Origin: an uncultured Caryophanales bacterium
GTDB lineage: Bacteria > Bacillota_I > Bacilli_A > Acholeplasmatales > Anaeroplasmataceae
Direction of reading: 5' to 3'
DNA: 64,000 bases
NCBI GenBank assembly: GCA_946405105.1
Contig: CAMJFY010000005.1
Coordinates: 1 to 64,000 of the forward strand
Part shown: piece by piece, positions 1,717 through 35,005 of the stretch
Layout: the number at the start of each line of letters is the position of its first letter
How positions within the stretch are numbered: position 1 is the stretch's first letter
The notes under the pieces: generated by a model
Databases searched by the model: none
Told to the model about the DNA's origin: nothing
The model's input: only the letters and a program-made list of their open reading frames with translations
Translations under genes and position numbers: made by a program

Positions 1717-4143
1717 TTATTTTATTACTATATTAACAATCTTCTTTGGAACTACAATTATTTTTACAATTTCTTTTCCATCTGTATAAGCCTTAATCTT
1801 TTCAGATGCCAAAGCTTGTTTTTCTACTTCCTTTGCATCTAGGTTTGCATCTAATAATAGCTTATCTCTTAATTTACCATTAACAGATACTGCATATGTT
1901 ACTTGGTCATCTTTACATTTAGCTTCATCATATGTAGGCCATGATTCATATGCGATTGTACTATTATGTCCTAGAGATTGCCACATTTCTTCACAAATAT
2001 GTGGGGCAACAGGAGATAATAATTTAATAAATCCTTCAATGAAGCCTAAATAAATCTTATCAGCCTTATATGCTTCATTGATAAATACCATCATTTGGCT
2101 TATTGCTGTATTAAATGCTAGAGACTCAAAATCCTCTGTAACCTTTTTAACTGTTTGGTTATAGATCTTTTCTAATGTCTTATCATATTCAGTAGTGAAT
2201 TTAGATTTGTAATCATTTAAGCATACTAATCTATAAACTCTATCTAAAAATCTTCTAGCACCTTCTACACCTTGATTACTCCAAGGCTTAGATGCCTCAA
2301 GTGGTCCCATAAACATTTCATATAAACGAAGTGTATCAGCACCATACTTTTCAACAATATCAGATGGATTAATTACGAATTCAGGGAATCTCTTACCCAT
2401 CTTAATTCCGTTAGAACCTAAGATCATACCTTGGTGAACTAACTTCTTGAATGGTTCTTTTGTTGGAGCGATACCTTTTTCGTAAAGATATCTATTCCAA
2501 ATTCTAGAATACATTAAATGTCCAACTGCGTGTTCTGGACCACCAATGTATAAATCAACTGGCATCCAATGCTTTAGCAACTCTTTATTTGCTAATTCAT
2601 CATTGTTCTTTGGATCAATGTATCTTAAGAAATACCAGCTTGATCCTGCAGAGCCTGGCATTGTTGATGTTTCTCTAACACCAACTACACCATTTTTGTT
2701 GTAATTCTTCCATTCTTCTGCGTTCTCTAATGGAGCTTTACCATTTCTTCCCTTATAATCATCTAGCTTAGGTAATACTAGAGGAAGCTCATCATCAGGT
2801 AATACATAGATACCATCCTTTGTATGAACAACAGGAACTGGTTCACCCCAATATCTTTGTCTAGCGAAAATCCATTCTCTAAATTTATAATTAACTGTTC
2901 TCTTAGCAATTCCCATCTTTTCTAGCTTAGATGTGATTGCTTCTTTAGCTTCTTCAACTGTTAAGCCGCTGAATTCTTCTGAATTAATTAGCTTACAGCC
3001 TTTTCCTAAATAATCTTGTTTTTCAAATGCACACTCAGATACATCTCTTCCATCGATTACTTGAATCATAGGAATGTTATGTGCAACTGCGTATTCGAAA
3101 TCTCTTTGGTCATGTGAAGGAACAGCCATAACTGCACCTGTACCATAATTAGCTAATACGAAATCACCTAAGAATAATGGTACCTCTTTTCCATTAACTG
3201 GGTTGATAGCCTTTAAGCCTTTTAATTCACAGCCTGTCTTACCCTTATTTAATTCTGTTCTATCTAAATCGCTCTTCTTTGATGTTTCAGCGATATATTC
3301 TTTAACCTCAGCTAGGTTTTCTACTCTATCTAATAAGCTATTAACGATTTCTCCATCTGGTGCTAATACCATAAATGTAATACCGTAAATAGTTTCAATA
3401 CATGTTGTGAAGATCTTAAATGAACCACCACCAACAATCTTGAATTCAACTTCAACACCAGTTGATTTACCAATCCAGTTTCTTTGCATTTCCTTTGTAG
3501 ATTCTGGCCAGTCAATTTCATTTAAGCCCTCTAACAGCTTTTCAGCAAATAATGGTTGATCAATAACCCATTGCTTCATATTCTTTCTTACAACTGGGAA
3601 GCCGCCTCTTTCACTCTTACCATCGATAACCTCATCGTTTGATAAAACTGTACCTAGCTCCTCACACCAGTTAACTGGCATATCAATGTATTTTGCATAT
3701 CCATCCTTATAAAGATTTTTGAAAATCCATTGTGTCCACTTATAATAGCTTGGGTCAGATGTTTGAATACATTTATCCCAATCATAATCAAAGCCTAATT
3801 CCTTTAATTGCTTAGTGAATGTCTTGATATTTTCATTTGTAAATCCCTCAGGATGGTTTCCTGTGTTAATTGCATATTGTTCTGCAGGTAAACCAAATGA
3901 ATCATATCCCATTGGGTGTAATACATTATATCCTTGCATTCTCTTCATTCTTGAAATTATATCAGTTGCTGTGTATCCTTCAGGGTGTCCTGCATGAAGA
4001 CCAACTCCAGATGGATATGGGAACATATCTAAGGCATAAAACTTAGGTTTTGAGAAATCCCATACATCAGTTTTGAATGTATGATTATCCTCCCAATATT
4101 TTTGCCATTTTGCTTCAATTATTTTGTGATTATATTCAGCCAT
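1717..4143 (-). CDS. leuS: Leucyl-tRNA synthetase
   Basis: Class I synthetase that charges tRNA-Leu. I start at ATG 4143, because GGAGG lies 11 bases upstream; upstream in-frame ATGs lack such a site. This gives 808 residues, normal for bacterial LeuRS. The HIGH motif is HAGH (residues 50-53) within FPYPSGVGLHAGHPEGY, and the leucine-pocket motif YDSFGLPAEQYA follows. The CP1 editing domain is present, with GTGAVMAVPSHDQRD. Two motifs depart from the textbook form: the KMSKS loop reads KMGKR (2389-2403), and the threonine-rich editing motif reads TTCIET (3400-3408 encodes TTC) in place of the usual TTRPDT. A second, degenerate LeuRS-like gene lies at 31533-33542; this one must be the functional enzyme. 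No T-box leader fits between its likely promoter and the start. Confidence 0.96.
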   Translation of the reverse strand: MAEYNHKIIEAKWQKYWEDNHTFKTDVWDFSKPKFYALDMFPYPSGVGLHAGHPEGYTATDIISRMKRMQGYNVLHPMGYDSFGLPAEQYAINTGNHPEGFTNENIKTFTKQLKELGFDYDWDKCIQTSDPSYYKWTQWIFKNLYKDGYAKYIDMPVNWCEELGTVLSNDEVIDGKSERGGFPVVRKNMKQWVIDQPLFAEKLLEGLNEIDWPESTKEMQRNWIGKSTGVEVEFKIVGGGSFKIFTTCIETIYGITFMVLAPDGEIVNSLLDRVENLAEVKEYIAETSKKSDLDRTELNKGKTGCELKGLKAINPVNGKEVPLFLGDFVLANYGTGAVMAVPSHDQRDFEYAVAHNIPMIQVIDGRDVSECAFEKQDYLGKGCKLINSEEFSGLTVEEAKEAITSKLEKMGIAKRTVNYKFREWIFARQRYWGEPVPVVHTKDGIYVLPDDELPLVLPKLDDYKGRNGKAPLENAEEWKNYNKNGVVGVRETSTMPGSAGSSWYFLRYIDPKNNDELANKELLKHWMPVDLYIGGPEHAVGHLMYSRIWNRYLYEKGIAPTKEPFKKLVHQGMILGSNGIKMGKRFPEFVINPSDIVEKYGADTLRLYEMFMGPLEASKPWSNQGVEGARRFLDRVYRLVCLNDYKSKFTTEYDKTLEKIYNQTVKKVTEDFESLAFNTAISQMMVFINEAYKADKIYLGFIEGFIKLLSPVAPHICEEMWQSLGHNSTIAYESWPTYDEAKCKDDQVTYAVSVNGKLRDKLLLDANLDAKEVEKQALASEKIKAYTDGKEIVKIIVVPKKIVNIVIK

Positions 4144-4181
4144 AAATAAATCAACCTCCATAAAAAAATAATACATAATGT

Positions 4182-26451: not shown

Positions 26452-28620
26452 TTATAATATATTTTTTGAAACTATTAATTCTTTATTATAGATTCTATCT
26501 TCAAATTCTGATAATCTAAGTGGCTTACCAAATAGGTAGCCTTGTAATCTTCCACAGCCGATTTCTCTTAAATAATTAGATTCATCTTCTGTTTCAACAC
26601 CTTCAGTTAAGGTGTTCATACCTAATCTTTCAGCTAATGTAATAATACAATCTAAAATATCTTTTGTCTTTTCATTTGATTCAAAATTAGATAAGAATTT
26701 CATATCAATTTTGATAACATCAAATTTAAAATCCTTTAGGATATTTAAAGATGAATAGCCAGAACCGAAATCATCTAGCCATATTGAATAGCCATTTTCT
26801 CTTAGCTTTGATACTGTATTACTTAAAAGTAGGGTATTATCAGATAATGCACTTTCTGTAATTTCAACATGGATATAATTTTTGTCGATATTATATTTAG
26901 AAACACTAGTTTCTAATACTTCTATAACATCCATTAATTCAAAATCTAATCTAGAGAAATTAATTGATACAGGAACAACTGTTCTATTTTCATCAATTGC
27001 TCTTCTCATTTCTCTACATACATATTCAATAATAGCTTTATCAAGCTTATGAATTAATCTTGTTTCTTCTAATAATGGAATGAAATCAGCAGGTGATAAG
27101 AATCCATAAACTGGATCAATCCATCTAGCTAATGCTTCAGCACCACAAAGCTCCTTGTCGTTACTCCAAACAACTGGCTGATAATATGCCTTAACCCAGC
27201 CTTTTTCAATTGCTTCATCAAGGTGGTTAACAATATAATGGCTCTTCTCTAGCTTTTCATCCATTTGTTCGTCGTATTCATTGAATATAACATCAGATTT
27301 ATTTTTAATTCTACTACAAGCATATCTAGCTTTATCTACAGCAATATATGGCTCTTCTTTACCATGTGGCTTATATCCACCAACCTTTAATAATACGAAT
27401 AAGCCATCAGCTAAATCTTTAACATGCTCATTAAGGGTATTGATTCTATCCATAAATCCATTTTGGCTTGTAAATACAACAAAATGGTCATCTGATTGTC
27501 TAGCGATTAAATCATCAGGGAATGATAATTTAATGAAATGTACTAAATCCTTTAAGAATTTATTTCCTTCAGCAAAGCCTCTTTGATTATTAATCATTTT
27601 GAAATTAGCTATATTAATGAATAAGCAAATTCTTCCATAATAATAATTCATTCCGCTTTCAAATTTAGAATTAATTCTATCTACTGCATATTGTAGATTA
27701 TTTGCTTCAACTAGTGGATCGAATATAGCATCATGAATTAGCTTTTCGTCCTTCTTTGCTTCTGTAATACGCTGCTGGTAAATACTTATTGTAACCATTG
27801 TTAAGCTTATTAGGAAGGTAATATAATTGATTAAATCACCATCCAAAAATACTCTTTTACTAGCTTCAGTATTTTCAACATTCTTAAGCATTACAGCAAA
27901 TAATACAAATATAGATGTTAAGATGATAATTGAAATATATGGCTTCCAAATTAATAGACACGCAACGAATAATATCATTGTTAGGAAGCAAATAATCATC
28001 TTAGGTCTACTTGTAGAAATGAAATCTATATAACCAAATTTAACACCAAATGTTAAACATATTGCAGCAAAAGAAATAATTACTGCCATCGCGAATGTCG
28101 AATGGTTTTGATTTCTTAATTTTTTATAAATCGCATTGGCAATTATAGACACGCCTAAAATTGGCATTAATGCATATAAGATATATGTACTTGATACATA
28201 AATAGCTGTTTGTCCCTTTAATTTTTCTAAGAAAACTATAAAGAACCATGAAATACATATTGAGCCAGTTACTAAATTTATAATAAATTCAGATTTCTTA
28301 TAATGCTTATTCCTAAAATAAAATACCGCAAATAAGAACACAGCTATTCCTGTAACTATAAATAATGTGTAATAAGAATAATATTTAAATAAGAATTCGA
28401 ACGCAGACATTTTAACGCCTACATTTTCTTTCCAACCAGGAATAACATATTCAAATAATTGTCTAAATATCATCCATATTTCTAATACTACAACTATGAA
28501 TGACATATAGATACTACTTTTTATATTGGCATCATTTATATAATTCTTAATATAGTGTGAATTTATTCTAAATCCTAATAAATCACGAATAAAATTCCAG
28601 GCTTTCTTTACCCAAACCAC
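26452..28620 (-). CDS. Membrane-bound cyclic di-GMP phosphodiesterase (degenerate GGDEF + EAL)
   Basis: Predicted to hydrolyse c-di-GMP at the membrane. I start at GTG 28620 (722 residues), which has AGAGG upstream; the frame is open to 28683. About eight membrane segments fill the first 290 residues. Next comes a GGDEF-like domain whose signature site reads RQSDDHFVVF, so cyclase activity is lost. The EAL domain then shows GAEALARW, PVSINFSRLDF, VEITESAL, WLDDFGSGYSSL, DVIKIDMKFL, LTEGVET and LQGYLFGKP, all consistent with an active phosphodiesterase. It is a single gene with a terminator. With the HD-GYP protein at 61374-62630, two c-di-GMP-degrading proteins are seen but no intact cyclase. 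Confidence 0.9.
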   Translation of the reverse strand: MVWVKKAWNFIRDLLGFRINSHYIKNYINDANIKSSIYMSFIVVVLEIWMIFRQLFEYVIPGWKENVGVKMSAFEFLFKYYSYYTLFIVTGIAVFLFAVFYFRNKHYKKSEFIINLVTGSICISWFFIVFLEKLKGQTAIYVSSTYILYALMPILGVSIIANAIYKKLRNQNHSTFAMAVIISFAAICLTFGVKFGYIDFISTSRPKMIICFLTMILFVACLLIWKPYISIIILTSIFVLFAVMLKNVENTEASKRVFLDGDLINYITFLISLTMVTISIYQQRITEAKKDEKLIHDAIFDPLVEANNLQYAVDRINSKFESGMNYYYGRICLFINIANFKMINNQRGFAEGNKFLKDLVHFIKLSFPDDLIARQSDDHFVVFTSQNGFMDRINTLNEHVKDLADGLFVLLKVGGYKPHGKEEPYIAVDKARYACSRIKNKSDVIFNEYDEQMDEKLEKSHYIVNHLDEAIEKGWVKAYYQPVVWSNDKELCGAEALARWIDPVYGFLSPADFIPLLEETRLIHKLDKAIIEYVCREMRRAIDENRTVVPVSINFSRLDFELMDVIEVLETSVSKYNIDKNYIHVEITESALSDNTLLLSNTVSKLRENGYSIWLDDFGSGYSSLNILKDFKFDVIKIDMKFLSNFESNEKTKDILDCIITLAERLGMNTLTEGVETEDESNYLREIGCGRLQGYLFGKPLRLSEFEDRIYNKELIVSKNIL

Positions 28621-28709
28621 GAAAAACGCCTCTTTTCTATTTATAAAGAAATAAAACGAAATATAACAAGTAAATAATAGCACATTTTACATTAAATGTA
28701 AAACTAGTT

Positions 28710-31523
28710 CTATTTCATAAATAAAGGCTTCAAATACTTTCCAGTATACGAATTTTCATCATTAATAATATCTTCTGGTCTACCTGCGAATACGCACTCT
28801 CCACCACGGTTACCACCCTCAGGTCCCATATCAATAATATAATCAGCTAATTTTATAACATCTAAATTATGCTCGATAATTAATACTGTAGCCCCTTGGT
28901 CAGCAATTCTATTAATAACATTCATTAATCTATTAATATCATCAGTATGAAGTCCTGTAGTAGGCTCATCCATTATATATAATGTTGTTGATGAAATTTT
29001 AGAATTTAATTCAGTAGCTAGCTTAACTCTTTGAGCCTCACCACCAGATAATGTTGTTGATGATTGACCAAGCTTAATATAGCCAAGTCCTACATCATAT
29101 AATGTTTGAAGGTATCTTTTAATTTTTGGTACAGCATCAAAGAATTCAAGGGCATCCTCTACTGTCATTTCTAAGACATCATAAATAGATTTATCTTTAA
29201 ATTTTACCTCTAATGTTTCAGATGTAAATCTCTTACCATGACATACCTCGCATGGAACATAAACATCAGGTAAAAATTGCATTGATATTCTTTTAACACC
29301 ATCACCACCACAGGCTTCACATCTTCCACCCTTAACATTAAATGAGAATTTTGATTTATCATATCCTCTTATTTTTGCATCATTAGTTTCAGCAAAAATA
29401 GATCTAATTAAATCAAATACTCCTGTATATGTAGCTGGATTTGATCTTGGAGTTCTTCCTATTGGTGATTGAGAAATATGAATAATTCTATCAATATTTT
29501 CAAGACCTGTTATCTTATCACACTTACCTGGGATAATTCTTTTAGAGCCATATATTTTCATATATGCGTTCTTATATAAAACCTCATTAATTAATGAAGA
29601 TTTACCAGAACCTGAAACACCTGTAATACATGTTATTATTCCAAGTGGAATATCAACATTAATATTCTTTAAATTATTTTCTTTAGCTCCTTTAATCTTT
29701 ATCCATTTATTAGTAAGCTTTCTTCTTTGAGTAGGAATATTAATCTTCATTCTTCCTGATAAATAATTACCAGTTATACTATTTTTATTTTCCATTACCT
29801 CTTTTGGTGTTCCTGCGGCAACAATCTTTCCGCCATGAATACCAGCTCCAGGTCCAACATCGACTAAATAATCAGCTTCTAGCATTGTTTCTTCATCGTG
29901 TTCTACAACAATTAAGGTATTGCCTAAATCACGCATTTCCTTTAATGTTTTAATTAGCTTAGAATTATCTCTTTGATGAAGTCCAATAGATGGCTCATCT
30001 AAAACATATAATACTCCAGTTAATCTAGAACCAATTTGTGTGGCAAGTCTAATTCTTTGAGCTTCACCACCAGATAATGTATCAGCACTTCTAGCTAATG
30101 TTAAATATTCCAATCCAACATTAATTAAGAATTTTAATCTATCTAGTGTTTCTTTTATCGCAAGCTCAGCAATCTTTGCCTTTTCAGGTGAAAGCTTTAG
30201 CTCACTAAACCATTTATATAGCTCATCAATTGGCATTGAGCATACATCATTAATGTTCTTATCATTAATAAAGATATTTAATACACTCTCATTTAATCTC
30301 TTGCCATTACATGCTTGACATACACTTTCAACCATGTAGCCCTCAATCCAATCTCTAATCCAATCAGATGATGTTTCCTCATATCTTCTTTGGAATGTAT
30401 TAACAACACCTTCAAATGAATCAGTTTTATCATGAATTCTTCCTGATGTAGCCTTTAGCTTCATTGGAATAATATCATCAGAACCATAAAGAATTATATC
30501 TTGATGCTTCTTTGGAAGATCCTTAAAAGGCTTATCCATATCAATATCATAAAATTTACATACTGATTTTAAGATACCTTGATTTAGATTATCTCTTTCC
30601 TGATTCTTATAAGGTAAAATACAATTATCATTTAATGATTTATCATAATCAATTATTAATTCATTAGAAACAGTTAGCTTTTTACCTAAACCATTACATT
30701 GTGGACATGCACCTAAAGGTGAATTAAATGAGAATAATCTAGGCTCTAATGTAGCTAAACTATAGCCACAATGAGGACACGCATGAACTGTTGAATAGAA
30801 TTCTTCTTCGTTATTGTTATAAATTACACAATAGCCATCAGATTCATTAATTGCGCTATTTACTGCATCGAAAATTCTACTTCTAATGCCATCCTTCATT
30901 ACTAATCTTTCTAATACGATATAGATATTATGCTTTTTATTTTTTTCTAATACAATTTCTTCTTCAAGCTCTCTAAGCTCGCCATCAACAAAGGCTCTAA
31001 CATAGCCCTTCTTAAGGTATTTTTCAAATACGCCCTTGTGCTCACCCTTTTGTCTAAAAACAACAGGTGATGTGATATATAGCTTAGATCCATTTTCGTA
31101 TTTTAATATCTTATCTACTATTTCATCTACAGAAAGTGATGAAATAGGAATATGATGATTAGGACAATATGGAACACCTACTCTAGAAAATAATACTCTT
31201 AAATAATCATATATTTCCGTAACTGTTCCTACTGTAGATCTTGGATTATGAGATGCAGATTTTTGATCAATTGAAATTGCAGGTGATAATCCTTCAATTG
31301 AATCTACATCTGGCTTTTCATTATTTCCAATAAATTGTCTAACAAATGAAGATAATGATTCTACGAATCTTCTTTTACCCTCTTGGTAAATAATATCAAA
31401 AGCTAATGATGACTTACCAGAGCCAGATAATCCTGTCATAACTATTAATTTGTTTTTAGGAAGCTCTAAAGAAATATTTTTTAAATTATTCTCTCTAGCT
31501 CCTTTAATTATTATCTTATCCAT
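28710..31523 (-). CDS. uvrA: Excinuclease ABC subunit A
   Basis: ATPase that recognises damaged DNA and loads UvrB in nucleotide excision repair. It has 937 residues and two ABC modules. The first Walker A is TGLSGSGKSSLAFD and the second GVSGSGKSSLINE. Signatures are TLSGGEAQRIRLA and TLSGGEAQRVKLA, and the Walker B/D-loops are YVLDEPSIGLHQRD and YIMDEPTTGLHTDD. Zinc-binding cysteine pairs are CPHC and CPQC in the first module and CEAC and CEVC in the second. It follows the LeuRS-like gene by nine bases that contain its AGGAG site, so it is the last gene of the acpP transcript. uvrB is not in the window. Confidence 0.98.
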   Translation of the reverse strand: MDKIIIKGARENNLKNISLELPKNKLIVMTGLSGSGKSSLAFDIIYQEGKRRFVESLSSFVRQFIGNNEKPDVDSIEGLSPAISIDQKSASHNPRSTVGTVTEIYDYLRVLFSRVGVPYCPNHHIPISSLSVDEIVDKILKYENGSKLYITSPVVFRQKGEHKGVFEKYLKKGYVRAFVDGELRELEEEIVLEKNKKHNIYIVLERLVMKDGIRSRIFDAVNSAINESDGYCVIYNNNEEEFYSTVHACPHCGYSLATLEPRLFSFNSPLGACPQCNGLGKKLTVSNELIIDYDKSLNDNCILPYKNQERDNLNQGILKSVCKFYDIDMDKPFKDLPKKHQDIILYGSDDIIPMKLKATSGRIHDKTDSFEGVVNTFQRRYEETSSDWIRDWIEGYMVESVCQACNGKRLNESVLNIFINDKNINDVCSMPIDELYKWFSELKLSPEKAKIAELAIKETLDRLKFLINVGLEYLTLARSADTLSGGEAQRIRLATQIGSRLTGVLYVLDEPSIGLHQRDNSKLIKTLKEMRDLGNTLIVVEHDEETMLEADYLVDVGPGAGIHGGKIVAAGTPKEVMENKNSITGNYLSGRMKINIPTQRRKLTNKWIKIKGAKENNLKNINVDIPLGIITCITGVSGSGKSSLINEVLYKNAYMKIYGSKRIIPGKCDKITGLENIDRIIHISQSPIGRTPRSNPATYTGVFDLIRSIFAETNDAKIRGYDKSKFSFNVKGGRCEACGGDGVKRISMQFLPDVYVPCEVCHGKRFTSETLEVKFKDKSIYDVLEMTVEDALEFFDAVPKIKRYLQTLYDVGLGYIKLGQSSTTLSGGEAQRVKLATELNSKISSTTLYIMDEPTTGLHTDDINRLMNVINRIADQGATVLIIEHNLDVIKLADYIIDMGPEGGNRGGECVFAGRPEDIINDENSYTGKYLKPLFMK

Positions 31524-31532
31524 AATGACTCC

Positions 31533-33542
31533 TTATACGGGCCAGCCCTCATTAATTATTGAATACTTACCCTTAAATTGTTTTTCATATACCTCCTCAG
31601 CTAAATATGGCATAACTGAGAAAATAATTCTTATAAATGTTAATATATTATCTTTTGATGGGATATCTTTAATAATATATTTAATACTAAATTCTTTAAC
31701 TAAATTAATAAAATCTACTACTCTATGCTCACTAATTAAAATACTAGCTTTAGTAGCGAAATCAGAAAAATAATAATCTAAATTAGATGTATCATTATCA
31801 CTTTCTCTTAATAATGCATCTCTTAGATATTTTACATATTTATCTATATCTTCTAATTCATATTGATTAAACACAAATTTATTATTAATATCTTGAGATA
31901 AATAATATAATCTGATAGAATCTGCAAAGCATTTATCCATAAGCTTATTTAAATCAACTAAATTATTATTAATTTTTGAAATAGGACTTAATGAATTATC
32001 AAATACCTTAGGTGCGATAATTACCTTTTTAGCAAATTCATGTAAATCATATCCTAATTCTTTTTTCAAAATATTATGAATAATAATTGGCATTAAAAGC
32101 TCAGATGCTAAAGATGATTCATCTACAATTATAAAATCTAGAGGAAGCCATGTATTATATTCTTCCTTAGTTGTTTCTGATAACATTTGATAATCAGAAT
32201 TAAATTCATCATATAAAATAGCTATAAATGGTGCCATACCTTCACTAAATAAATTATTCATTGTTCCCTCTAATGGTTCACCTAATAAATCTACATTAGG
32301 TAATAGCTGAGGTCTAAATGCTTGATTAAAATTATATGGTAAGAAATTCTTTAATGGATTTATTACCATACCTTCCTTATCATATAAAAATGGGAATAAA
32401 GCACCGAATGGATCAAATGATGATAAATTGATCTCCTTCTTACCATAAACCACCTTTTTAGCGGCAATTCCGGCGTCTATGAAGGCATCTATTATAGTTT
32501 TCTTAGCTGTATTAACATCTAATCCATTTAAAAAATCAGAATTAATTAATACATCATCAGATAATACATTAATAATTTCAAATCCTGCGTTAGTGGCAAA
32601 AAGCTTATCTTCGTTATTTATCCCTGGCATACCTAAATAAAAATCTTTATTTTCGGCTGTAGAAACGAAAAGAGGTATCATAGCTCCTGTCAATGGATTT
32701 ATCGCATTAACGCCTGTATACGCAAATGGTTCATTACCATTTTCTAAATATTGTTCAACTGATGATATTTCATCATGGTCAGTATAATCTATTACATTAA
32801 TATATTCAGGATTCATTAAAATATATGATATTGATCCTAAATATTGTGGGTTTTCTAATTCTATTTCTATTGTCTTATCATTACTTAAGGAAAGATTTAG
32901 AGTTAAAACCTCCTTAGGCTCTAATAAATTAATTAGCTTGTTTTTGTATGTATCACTGATATTTAGCTTTTCAATATCAGCTACTACCTGCTTACTTAAA
33001 TTATCTATTTTTAAAACAAAGCATTTTTCTTTGATTCTTGGTAATTCTTTTTTATTATCTAGATTAAATGAATCATATATTTTATTTTTTGATTCATCAA
33101 AATATACAATTGTATTTTTATATTCAATATATCCTTTTTCATATAAATCGATGAATGCTGATTGCAAATTTGAAACATATTCATTATGTCTCATATTAAT
33201 CATTTTAGCTTCATTAATACCTACACCTAGCTCTTCTAGTGTTTCTTTATAAATATTAGGTATTTTATCATCTAAATAATTACTAGTCTTTTTACTTTCA
33301 TAAAAGCTTTTTGAGCATAATGTATTAAATCCAACTGGAAATAATACATTCATATCTCTCATTCTTAAAAAGCGTGAATAAAAATCGGCATAAATCTGTG
33401 GTCTTACATTAGCATCTAAAAAGCCATGCATATCACATCTAGGAAATGACGCAAATATATATTTTTTCTCTTTCAATCTATCATTTTCGATAATAAATGA
33501 ACGATTGTTTAACCATTTCTGGTACCAGTTTCCTCTGCCCAT
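31533..33542 (-). CDS. LeuRS-like protein with lost catalytic motifs (synthetase paralogue)
   Basis: A 669-residue class I synthetase relative that aligns with LeuRS over most of its length. From SFPRCDM (residue 32) onward it aligns without gaps for 52 residues with the functional LeuRS of this window, sharing FP, the RM, NVL-P and G landmarks. The HIGH position, however, reads LDAN (residues 42-45), and the leucine-pocket motif is replaced by NTLCSKSF. A CP1-like region (NPLTGAMIPLFVS), a PLDFIIVDES segment matching the LeuRS PVDLYIGGPEH segment, and a C-terminal helical domain with DSIRLYYLS are retained. No KMSKS loop is recognisable. Aminoacylation is therefore unlikely. A perfect AGGAGGTGA site and clean reading frame argue that it is expressed and selected. 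It lies between acpP and uvrA. Function unknown. Confidence 0.85.
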   Translation of the reverse strand: MGRGNWYQKWLNNRSFIIENDRLKEKKYIFASFPRCDMHGFLDANVRPQIYADFYSRFLRMRDMNVLFPVGFNTLCSKSFYESKKTSNYLDDKIPNIYKETLEELGVGINEAKMINMRHNEYVSNLQSAFIDLYEKGYIEYKNTIVYFDESKNKIYDSFNLDNKKELPRIKEKCFVLKIDNLSKQVVADIEKLNISDTYKNKLINLLEPKEVLTLNLSLSNDKTIEIELENPQYLGSISYILMNPEYINVIDYTDHDEISSVEQYLENGNEPFAYTGVNAINPLTGAMIPLFVSTAENKDFYLGMPGINNEDKLFATNAGFEIINVLSDDVLINSDFLNGLDVNTAKKTIIDAFIDAGIAAKKVVYGKKEINLSSFDPFGALFPFLYDKEGMVINPLKNFLPYNFNQAFRPQLLPNVDLLGEPLEGTMNNLFSEGMAPFIAILYDEFNSDYQMLSETTKEEYNTWLPLDFIIVDESSLASELLMPIIIHNILKKELGYDLHEFAKKVIIAPKVFDNSLSPISKINNNLVDLNKLMDKCFADSIRLYYLSQDINNKFVFNQYELEDIDKYVKYLRDALLRESDNDTSNLDYYFSDFATKASILISEHRVVDFINLVKEFSIKYIIKDIPSKDNILTFIRIIFSVMPYLAEEVYEKQFKGKYSIINEGWPV

Positions 33543-33571
33543 TTTTTCACCTCCTTTTTAAGATAATAAAA

Positions 33572-33591
33572 GGCTACGCCAAAGCGTAACC
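33572..33591 (-). terminator. Hairpin between acpP and the LeuRS-like gene, possible attenuator
   Basis: Minus strand: GGTTACGC, four-base loop, GCGTAGCC, then TTTTATTATC. It looks like an intrinsic terminator after acpP. Only about 30 bases separate it from the next start, with no room for a separate promoter, so downstream genes depend on read-through. Confidence 0.75.
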
Positions 33592-33606
33592 CCTATCTAA
33601 TCAAAA

Positions 33607-33843
33607 TTACTTAATTAATGTTTGTACATATTCAACAAGGTTGCCTACAGTTTGAATAGCTTCGGCATTATCTTCTTCAATTGTAACACCAAAAGTATCT
33701 TCAAGGTCCATAATAATTTGTACAGCATCAATACTGTCAGCGCCTAGGTCATCTTTTAATTTTGCTTCCATTGTAACCTTTTCAGGTGCACAATTTAATT
33801 CATCAATAATAATCTTTTTAACTTTTTCAAATATTTCTTGCAT
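33607..33843 (-). CDS. acpP: Acyl carrier protein
   Basis: Carrier of growing acyl chains in fatty acid synthesis, with a phosphopantetheine arm on the serine of DDLGADSIDAVQ (Ser about residue 36). It has 78 residues, is strongly acidic and has the usual four-helix pattern, ending VGNLVEYVQTLIK. AGGAGG lies nine bases before the ATG. It has its own promoter and is followed by a hairpin and then the LeuRS-like gene. It is not next to other fatty acid genes, so a specialised carrier role is possible. Confidence 0.94.
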   Translation of the reverse strand: MQEIFEKVKKIIIDELNCAPEKVTMEAKLKDDLGADSIDAVQIIMDLEDTFGVTIEEDNAEAIQTVGNLVEYVQTLIK

Positions 33844-33871: not shown

Positions 33872-33900
33872 ATTATAACAAATATGGTTGTTTTAATCAA
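33872..33900 (-). promoter_or_regulatory. Promoter of acpP and the LeuRS-like/uvrA transcript
   Basis: Minus strand: -35 TTGATT, 17-base spacer, -10 TATAAT with an upstream TG. It overlaps the end of the hom-like gene. Confidence 0.75.
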
Positions 33901-35005
33901 TAATTCTAGCATAAAATTCAATTTCATTTTTATGAATATTAAGCTCCTCGCCAAGAATTGGCTTAGTTAGAATTAATTTATCTAAATTTTTTTCTGTTAT
34001 TTCTTTGAAATAATCATTCATTATTTTAGTCTTTATTAGGTATCTTGCCTCATAATGTCTGTTACCATTACATATATGAGAATTCTTAGGCATAAACTTC
34101 TGTCTATAATCATTTAGGGCTAATTCTAAATCAAAAATAATCGCATTAGTTTTTGATTCAACTGAATTATTAGAAATAATAGATTGTTCTTTTATTTCTT
34201 TACCATAATATTTAATCAATATTTCATTATTAGATACATTTGATAATATATCTGTATTCTTAACTAATACAGGCTCTATCATCGCATTAATCATATAATT
34301 AGATAAATATGCTGAAGCTAAAAGCTTTACCTTGCATCCTAATAAATTAGCTATTAAAATTATATCTTCCTTTAAATCTTTAATATTACATTTATATATT
34401 TCATCAATATTAACTGTACTATTAAAAGCAATCATTGTTAAAATAGATAGCTTCTTTGCCTGTTGTTCACACGAAAAATCATAATATTTATTAGGCTCTA
34501 TTCCATCATTAAGGCTAATGTTATCATTTGTCATCCTAGTCAATATATCATTGATATTTTCATCTAGGATTGCCTCAATTTTATTAATGTCATTAAAGCT
34601 AGAATATTTTAATAATGAATTAATTATTAAACTTGATCCTCCTACTGTTGAATTAAATAATAGCTTAACATGCATATCTATAGCTAATGCCTCTAATTCA
34701 ACATAATGAAGTGATATAGCATCATATGATGATGTTATAACGTGCTTTGAATAATTTAACGCTCTTTTAATTAGATTAAATGATTCATTAGATTCATAAG
34801 TCTCAATGATTAAATTAATATCATTATCCTCAAGAATAATATTGTAATCAGTTGTAAATACTGGATTAAATGAATGAATATCTTCATCAATTAAAATATA
34901 TTTAATATTGATATCATAATCCCTAAAAATATTATTCTTTTTATTTTCTAATACATTATAGACATTCTTTCCTAAAGAATTGTAGCCCAATATAGCGATA
35001 TTCAT
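33893..35005 (-). CDS. Homoserine dehydrogenase-like protein with eroded active site
   Basis: 370 residues with the layout of homoserine dehydrogenase: an N-terminal Rossmann-type start MNIAILGYNSLGKNVYNVL, a middle HVITSSYDAISLHYVELEALA corresponding to the HVVTANKALVA region, and the FNSTVGGSSLIINSLL stretch corresponding to the VGGGIPII region. Key sites are altered. The glycine-rich loop reads GYNSLG. NGTTNYIL is replaced by DENINDIL. The DVxGxDAAxK segment is shortened to DFSCEQQAKK, keeping the lysine but not the catalytic Asp. It is the last gene of thrC-thrB-pheB, coupled by a TAATG overlap. It may be an inactive or altered dehydrogenase; a divergent active enzyme is not excluded. No aspartokinase domain is attached. 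Confidence 0.7.
   Translation of the reverse strand: MNIAILGYNSLGKNVYNVLENKKNNIFRDYDINIKYILIDEDIHSFNPVFTTDYNIILEDNDINLIIETYESNESFNLIKRALNYSKHVITSSYDAISLHYVELEALAIDMHVKLLFNSTVGGSSLIINSLLKYSSFNDINKIEAILDENINDILTRMTNDNISLNDGIEPNKYYDFSCEQQAKKLSILTMIAFNSTVNIDEIYKCNIKDLKEDIILIANLLGCKVKLLASAYLSNYMINAMIEPVLVKNTDILSNVSNNEILIKYYGKEIKEQSIISNNSVESKTNAIIFDLELALNDYRQKFMPKNSHICNGNRHYEARYLIKTKIMNDYFKEITEKNLDKLILTKPILGEELNIHKNEIEFYARIID

Follow-up and report, generated by a model that had tools for sequence, protein, structure and literature searches.

The gene at positions 31533 to 33542 on the minus strand of the window (the whole stretch of 64,000 nucleotides analyzed here, from contig CAMJFY010000005.1 of an uncultured member of the Anaeroplasmataceae) encodes a 669-residue protein with the fold of leucyl-tRNA synthetase (LeuRS), without its catalytic motifs and without its C-terminal tRNA-binding domain. 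This pseudo-synthetase is probably the native LeuRS of the Acholeplasmatales, displaced from translation and then retained directly behind the acyl carrier protein (ACP) gene acpP. The best overall explanation combines displacement, loss, retention, and a role as a partner of the ACP, and we give this combination a blended probability of roughly 0.6. Its parts differ in strength. From sequence evidence, the origin, the loss of synthetase function, and the retention are together very probable, and the ACP-partner step is tentative.

A LeuRS fold without catalytic motifs

The 669-residue frame is intact and starts with ATG behind a strong Shine-Dalgarno sequence (AAGGAGG), in agreement with an earlier sequence-only reading of this DNA, which had given the same coordinates and length and a perfect ribosome-binding site. 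Pfam profiles of the class I synthetase, LeuRS editing, and anticodon domains match the protein at low scores. The NCBIfam model leuS_bact matches it with an E value of 2.8e-33 and 115 bits, below the cutoff of 548 bits; the true LeuRS of the window (1717 to 4176, minus strand) scores 988 bits. The LeuRS domain architecture, including the CP1 insert, is present in an AF2 model calculated from an alignment of 22 orthologues (pLDDT, 88.6; pTM, 0.87), and every one of the best 49 matches of this model in the PDB is a LeuRS, with TM scores of approximately 0.65 to 0.70, almost full-length coverage, and 16 to 20% identity. Profile search and structure prediction thus support the LeuRS ancestry and the retained fold proposed in the sequence-only reading. 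They also carry a warning for annotation, as the protein scores as leuS at an E value near 1e-33 yet is very probably not a LeuRS.

Motif retention was counted in an alignment of 46 distinct degenerate copies from Anaeroplasmataceae and 13 native LeuRS from sister families. The first His of HIGH is found in none of the degenerate copies and the last His in one; the position reads LDAN in the window copy and more commonly Q-x-G-x across the family. Neither the Pro and Glu of the leucine-pocket motif FGLPxE nor the His of the EH motif is retained in any copy. The same is true of the Arg positions and the Trp of RQRYWG, of which Gly alone remains, and the second Arg (R424) is replaced by Asp in 41 of 46 copies. 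The KMSKS loop is degenerate rather than deleted, reading PISKI in the window copy and IKRSNNN in others. Its first lysine is present in 6 and its second in 7 of the 46 copies, with Arg in place of the second in 32 and NN within the loop in 37; the copies of family f2 likewise lack the KMSKS lysines. The CP1 editing fold is kept with its threonine motif lost (T252 equivalent, 0/46) and with an invariant Asp (E. coli D345 equivalent, 46/46). The reported loss of HIGH and FGLPxE therefore holds throughout the family, and none of the 46 homologues has an intact HIGH/KMSKS pair; the report that KMSKS was absent is accurate for most of the catalytic lysines but not for the loop, which persists in degenerate form.

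The C-terminal tRNA-binding domain, which makes up the approximately 75 residues past the WP motif in native LeuRS, is missing in all 46 copies, each of which ends 0 to 2 residues past that motif. The truncation point, at position 105 of 148 in the Anticodon_1 profile, is common to all three families that carry the gene, f2 and f4 included. The median pI is 4.8 in the degenerate copies versus 5.6 in native LeuRS. As the motifs and the C-terminal domain are lost in sequence, we infer that the pseudo-synthetase no longer charges tRNA. The HIGH variant Q-x-G-N bears some resemblance to the variant motif found in TrpRS, and altered chemistry is therefore conceivable.

Probable origin as a displaced native LeuRS

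Twelve genomes were checked in f3 and f5, the families without a degenerate copy (f3, judging by its small-genome genus, probably comprises the Acholeplasmataceae with the phytoplasmas). The single ACP gene adjoins functional leuS in 7 of the 12 and lies within 3 kb of it in 3 more. Among 30 LeuRS loci of other Bacilli, acpP was never found beside leuS. As the sister families have the pair and the other Bacilli loci do not, the acpP-leuS order is very probably ancestral, and the degenerate copy then occupies the native leuS locus. The native LeuRS of the sister families share this locus order and are the nearest relatives of the pseudo-synthetase in trees and profile scores; they differ from it in being catalytically complete (HVGH, KMSKS), approximately 140 residues longer, and preceded in most loci by a promoter-like site of their own.

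Phylogenetic analysis placed the degenerate copies and the native LeuRS in one clade (support, 99 to 100) and the functional LeuRS of f1 and f2 in another, nested among other Bacilli. A grouping of native LeuRS with the working LeuRS of Anaeroplasmataceae was rejected in two tests (p = 0.0046 and p = 0.0002), as was a constraint uniting the slowly evolving f2 degenerate copies with functional LeuRS (p = 0.0035). The corresponding constraint on all degenerate copies, long branches included, was not significant in the AU test (p = 0.128). The best BLAST match fell in the native group for 15 of 16 degenerate copies, and the native-group HMM scored highest for all 16. An origin by duplication of the genome's own LeuRS was rejected on the basis of the tree, the profile scores, and the f2 constraint. 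The description of the gene as a LeuRS paralogue is thus misleading, as the trees and HMM scores indicate that this gene encodes the native enzyme, since displaced, and that the working LeuRS (819 residues, of other-Bacilli descent, with KMGKR for KMSKS) is the newcomer.

Because the ancestral acpP-leuS locus, the trees, and the HMM scores agree, xenologous replacement followed by loss of function in place is the very probable history. The ancestor would have had a native Acholeplasmatales LeuRS within an acpP-leuS gene pair, and a LeuRS from other Bacilli would have taken over translation in the ancestor of the Anaeroplasmataceae. The native copy would then have lost its adenylation motifs, its editing threonines, and its C-terminal tRNA-binding domain; it persists immediately after acpP as an intact gene under selection. 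The surviving forms make up a graded series, from active acpP-leuS pairs through f2 copies that are close to LeuRS but have dead motifs to the fully re-tooled copies of Anaeroplasma.

The single f4 genome (L051, G026:C15) carries a third, divergent kind of functional LeuRS (SGHGLHCGHIRA) and a 517-residue degenerate copy elsewhere, which suggests that LeuRS was replaced a second time, independently, within the order. This copy yields a poor fold model (pLDDT, 51.7) and was assigned by Pfam CP1 and anticodon matches together with locus order, its tree position being unreliable. When the whole class was searched, no further member of this type turned up outside the order, at a sensitivity at which copies as divergent as those of f2 and f4 could escape detection.

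The working LeuRS of the window is itself unusual in that KMSKS is replaced by KMGKRFPE with a one-residue insertion and the editing motif TTRPDT by TTCIET. This form occurs in seven Anaeroplasma genomes that make up one long-stemmed clade; other Anaeroplasma do not have it.

Retention under selection

Relatives of the pseudo-synthetase were found by an alignment-based contig scan; a single-sequence scan gave none. Of 27 sampled Anaeroplasma genomes, 25 carry an intact copy, and the open frame is full length in nearly all 55 genomes of the family. Among the carriers is an isolate, Anaeroplasma bactoclasticum ATCC 27112 (locus L088), which belongs to the genus of the window genome. The genomes without a copy are drafts in which the acpP of the locus is absent too or the contig ends directly past it. 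The contig of G152 ends approximately 90 bp past acpP, G130 lacks both genes, and searches of G004 and G022 found neither the degenerate gene nor the acpP of the locus.

Pairwise dN/dS values (NG86) of representative close pairs ranged from 0.04 to 0.28 (0.013/0.30, 0.083/0.80, 0.095/0.63, and 0.169/0.594). The protein evolves at approximately four times the rate of UvrA (median distance, 1.06 versus 0.27 for uvrA), as might be expected of a decaying pseudogene or a binning artifact, but with intact copies in approximately 50 genomes, the A. bactoclasticum isolate included, and low dN/dS, the probability of either is close to nil. The pseudogene reading was rejected on the open frames across the family and the low dN/dS, and the earlier view that the gene is not decaying is borne out by sister genomes. 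Former catalytic positions are better conserved than other Rossmann positions (0.503 versus 0.447; permutation p = 0.0096). As these positions are better conserved and their new residues are shared, the sequences suggest that the former active site has been re-tooled rather than left to decay.

The acpP locus and expression

Upstream of the pseudo-synthetase gene lies acpP (33607 to 33843, minus strand), which encodes a 78-residue ACP with a phosphopantetheine serine (DSI) and is the conserved upstream partner, outside the type II fatty acid synthesis (FAS-II) cluster. Distinct loci from three families with otherwise differing neighbors were compared, and in 47 of the 49 it lies directly ahead of the degenerate gene; of the two exceptions, one is a contig end and one is a true break (G127, with acpP elsewhere). 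Downstream, uvrA (28710 to 31523, minus strand) follows after 9 bp and lies outside the unit. The sequence-only reading had placed the gene between acpP and uvrA next to the threonine operon. A survey of this gene order confirmed the acpP link; uvrA adjacency was found in this window only, and the threonine operon is shared by Anaeroplasma genomes only. Both were rejected as conserved context.

The FAS-II cluster of the window genome has separate ACP genes, and the acpP of the locus is thus an additional ACP. In f2 and f4 genomes, the acpP/degenerate-gene pair was present and no ketoacyl synthase match was found. The FAS-II and acetyl coenzyme A carboxylase cluster at L228 (G000:C6:50000-66000) has its own pair of ACP genes, and an 810-residue frame in it matches ketoacyl synthase twice. 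Several Anaeroplasma genomes (G011:C14, G008:C11, and G001:C20) have open frames of 2,400 to 2,970 residues that contain two or three carrier-protein domains and may encode modular synthases.

A terminator-like hairpin with a T-run occupies the gap between acpP and the pseudo-synthetase gene (33569 to 33594, minus strand), and a similar hairpin is found in 41 of 47 homologous loci. The median distance from hairpin to start codon is 26 nt, so that a separate promoter would hardly fit, if at all. In the interval between acpP and the gene, TATAAT is found in 3 of 47 degenerate loci versus 6 of 10 native loci. Apparently, therefore, the degenerate gene no longer has a promoter of its own and depends on read-through of the acpP terminator. 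A promoter-like site upstream of acpP, recognized purely by its match to the consensus (TTGATT-17-TATAAT with TG; 33872 to 33900, minus strand), is proposed to serve both genes, and read-through from it past the terminator would yield the pseudo-synthetase at a low level.

Beside acpP, a homoserine dehydrogenase-like gene (33893 to 35005, minus strand) is a second degenerate paralogue, in which GxGxxG reads GYNSLG and NGTTN reads DENIN; an intact hom is present at G000:C9. Its relatives are also graded, with motifs kept at L025 and L027 and partly degenerate at L081, L082, and L024. A GGDEF-EAL protein (26452 to 28683, minus strand), which resembles c-di-GMP phosphodiesterases and has an N-terminal segment that is hydrophobic by eye, is encoded here in a relative of the mollicutes.

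Candidate role of the pseudo-synthetase

At the gene level, the pseudo-synthetase is coupled to a carrier protein by both the 47 of 49 loci and the covariation of evolutionary distances. The distances of acpP and the degenerate gene were correlated when uvrA was taken into account (partial r = 0.61; p = 0.0002; 14 genomes) and beyond thrB/thrC (0.61; p = 0.0005). With thrC alone, in another gene set, the value fell to 0.47, above the 0.18 to 0.26 of neighbor-gene controls. Such mirror-tree covariation, which can stem from linkage or rate variation, is suggestive of a link. The pseudo-synthetase may therefore be viewed as a putative binding or regulatory protein whose re-tooled former active site and LeuRS-shaped body would recognize a new partner, most likely the cotranscribed non-FAS ACP or a cargo carried on it.

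This last step is a tentative one. The acpP-leuS order is older than the loss of catalysis, and the adjacency could therefore be inertia. A neofunctionalized protein with a role unrelated to the ACP, in which the adjacency is a relic kept by dependence on the acpP promoter, is about as likely, short of an even chance. The presence of the gene order before the loss speaks for it, as do the split of the pair in one genome (G127) and the fact that loss of its own promoter would be enough to keep the two genes side by side. It does not predict the excess covariation with acpP, and adjacency is stricter in degenerate copies (47/49) than in active leuS genes (7/12 directly adjacent). A bolder version of the ACP-partner reading, in which the Acholeplasmatales LeuRS had a prior ACP-linked second job that became its sole job after displacement, with a pocket that possibly binds phosphopantetheine cargo, is rather unlikely; if true, the pseudo-synthetase would expose a hidden partnership between class I synthetases and carrier proteins.

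The other readings are less probable still. An enzyme whose altered chemistry charges the carrier protein with an amino acid or an acyl group would explain the ACP adjacency and the conservation of former active-site positions in a new form (Asp for R424 in 41/46, NN in 37/46), and the class II amino acid:[carrier protein] ligases offer a precedent (PMC9437257). Those ligases, however, retain adenylation activity, and here the canonical ATP-site residues are gone (HIGH, EH, and, in most copies, both KMSKS lysines), which makes such an enzyme improbable. Marginally lower is the probability of a tRNA-Leu- or leucine-dependent regulator, such as a leucine sensor or a tRNA chaperone. The LeuRS fold is retained, and the Sulfolobaceae LeuRS-I binds tRNA-Leu without aminoacylating it (PMC9437257); against this stand the missing C-terminal domain (46/46), the anticodon domain cut at position 105 of 148, the acidic shift in median pI (4.8 versus 5.6), and the loss of the leucine-pocket Pro and Glu in all 46 copies. 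A role in trans-editing, or as a partner subunit to the working LeuRS, would fit the kept CP1 fold with its invariant D345 equivalent (46/46) and the unusual TTCIET motif of the window LeuRS. The T252 equivalent is lost in all 46 copies, however, and degenerate copies are equally present where the editing motif of the working LeuRS is normal, so that this reading is very improbable. Overall, the lost domains and residues speak against tRNA binding, leucine sensing, and trans-editing. The sequence-only reading had offered three guesses, among which a carrier-protein partner fares best, on circumstantial grounds (47/49 loci and covariation); an amino acid sensor is disfavored by the lost leucine pocket, and a tRNA-binding factor by the lost C-terminal tRNA domain and the more acidic protein.

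Relation to known systems

The SerRS-like class II amino acid:[carrier protein] ligases were reportedly described by Mocibob et al. in 2010. Like the pseudo-synthetase, they are derived from a synthetase, have no tRNA-binding domain, and are coupled to a phosphopantetheine carrier (here at the gene level). In contrast, they have a class II fold and an active adenylation site, whereas the pseudo-synthetase has a class I LeuRS fold and has lost its catalytic residues. HisZ is likewise a synthetase-derived pseudoenzyme and serves as the regulatory subunit of a partner enzyme, ATP-phosphoribosyltransferase, a parallel to the regulatory role proposed here; it differs in being class II, in sensing histidine, and in working with HisG.

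A review of duplicated synthetases lists these two systems together with LeuRS-I of Sulfolobaceae and LeuRS2 of Halobacteria (PMC9437257). According to the summary given there, Weitzel et al. (2020) showed that LeuRS-I binds tRNA-Leu and forms leucyl-adenylate and does not charge the tRNA. In that account, LeuRS-I resembles the pseudo-synthetase as a second, noncharging LeuRS in the genome, with its CP1 disrupted and its C-terminal domain divergent and acidic, and is needed for optimal growth. It differs in being archaeal and in its tRNA-Leu binding and leucyl-adenylate synthesis; both activities are argued against in the pseudo-synthetase by the sequence, which has neither the adenylation motifs nor the C-terminal domain. 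The pseudo-synthetase thus shares features with each of these systems and fits the definition of none.

The literature that was searched contained no report of the pseudo-synthetase gene or of an acpP-leuS link. As a repurposed synthetase, it would be unusual both as a displaced native enzyme and in its gene-level coupling to a carrier protein. Nontranslational relatives of synthetases are usually accounted for as changed duplicates, and the present case points the opposite way, to an essential native enzyme whose place was taken by a transferred homologue and which lost its catalysis before being conserved throughout a bacterial family. With the graded series, one can explore what use a LeuRS body still has after translation has come to rely on another enzyme, and the candidate link between a class I synthetase and a carrier protein comes with a cultured host, A. 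bactoclasticum.
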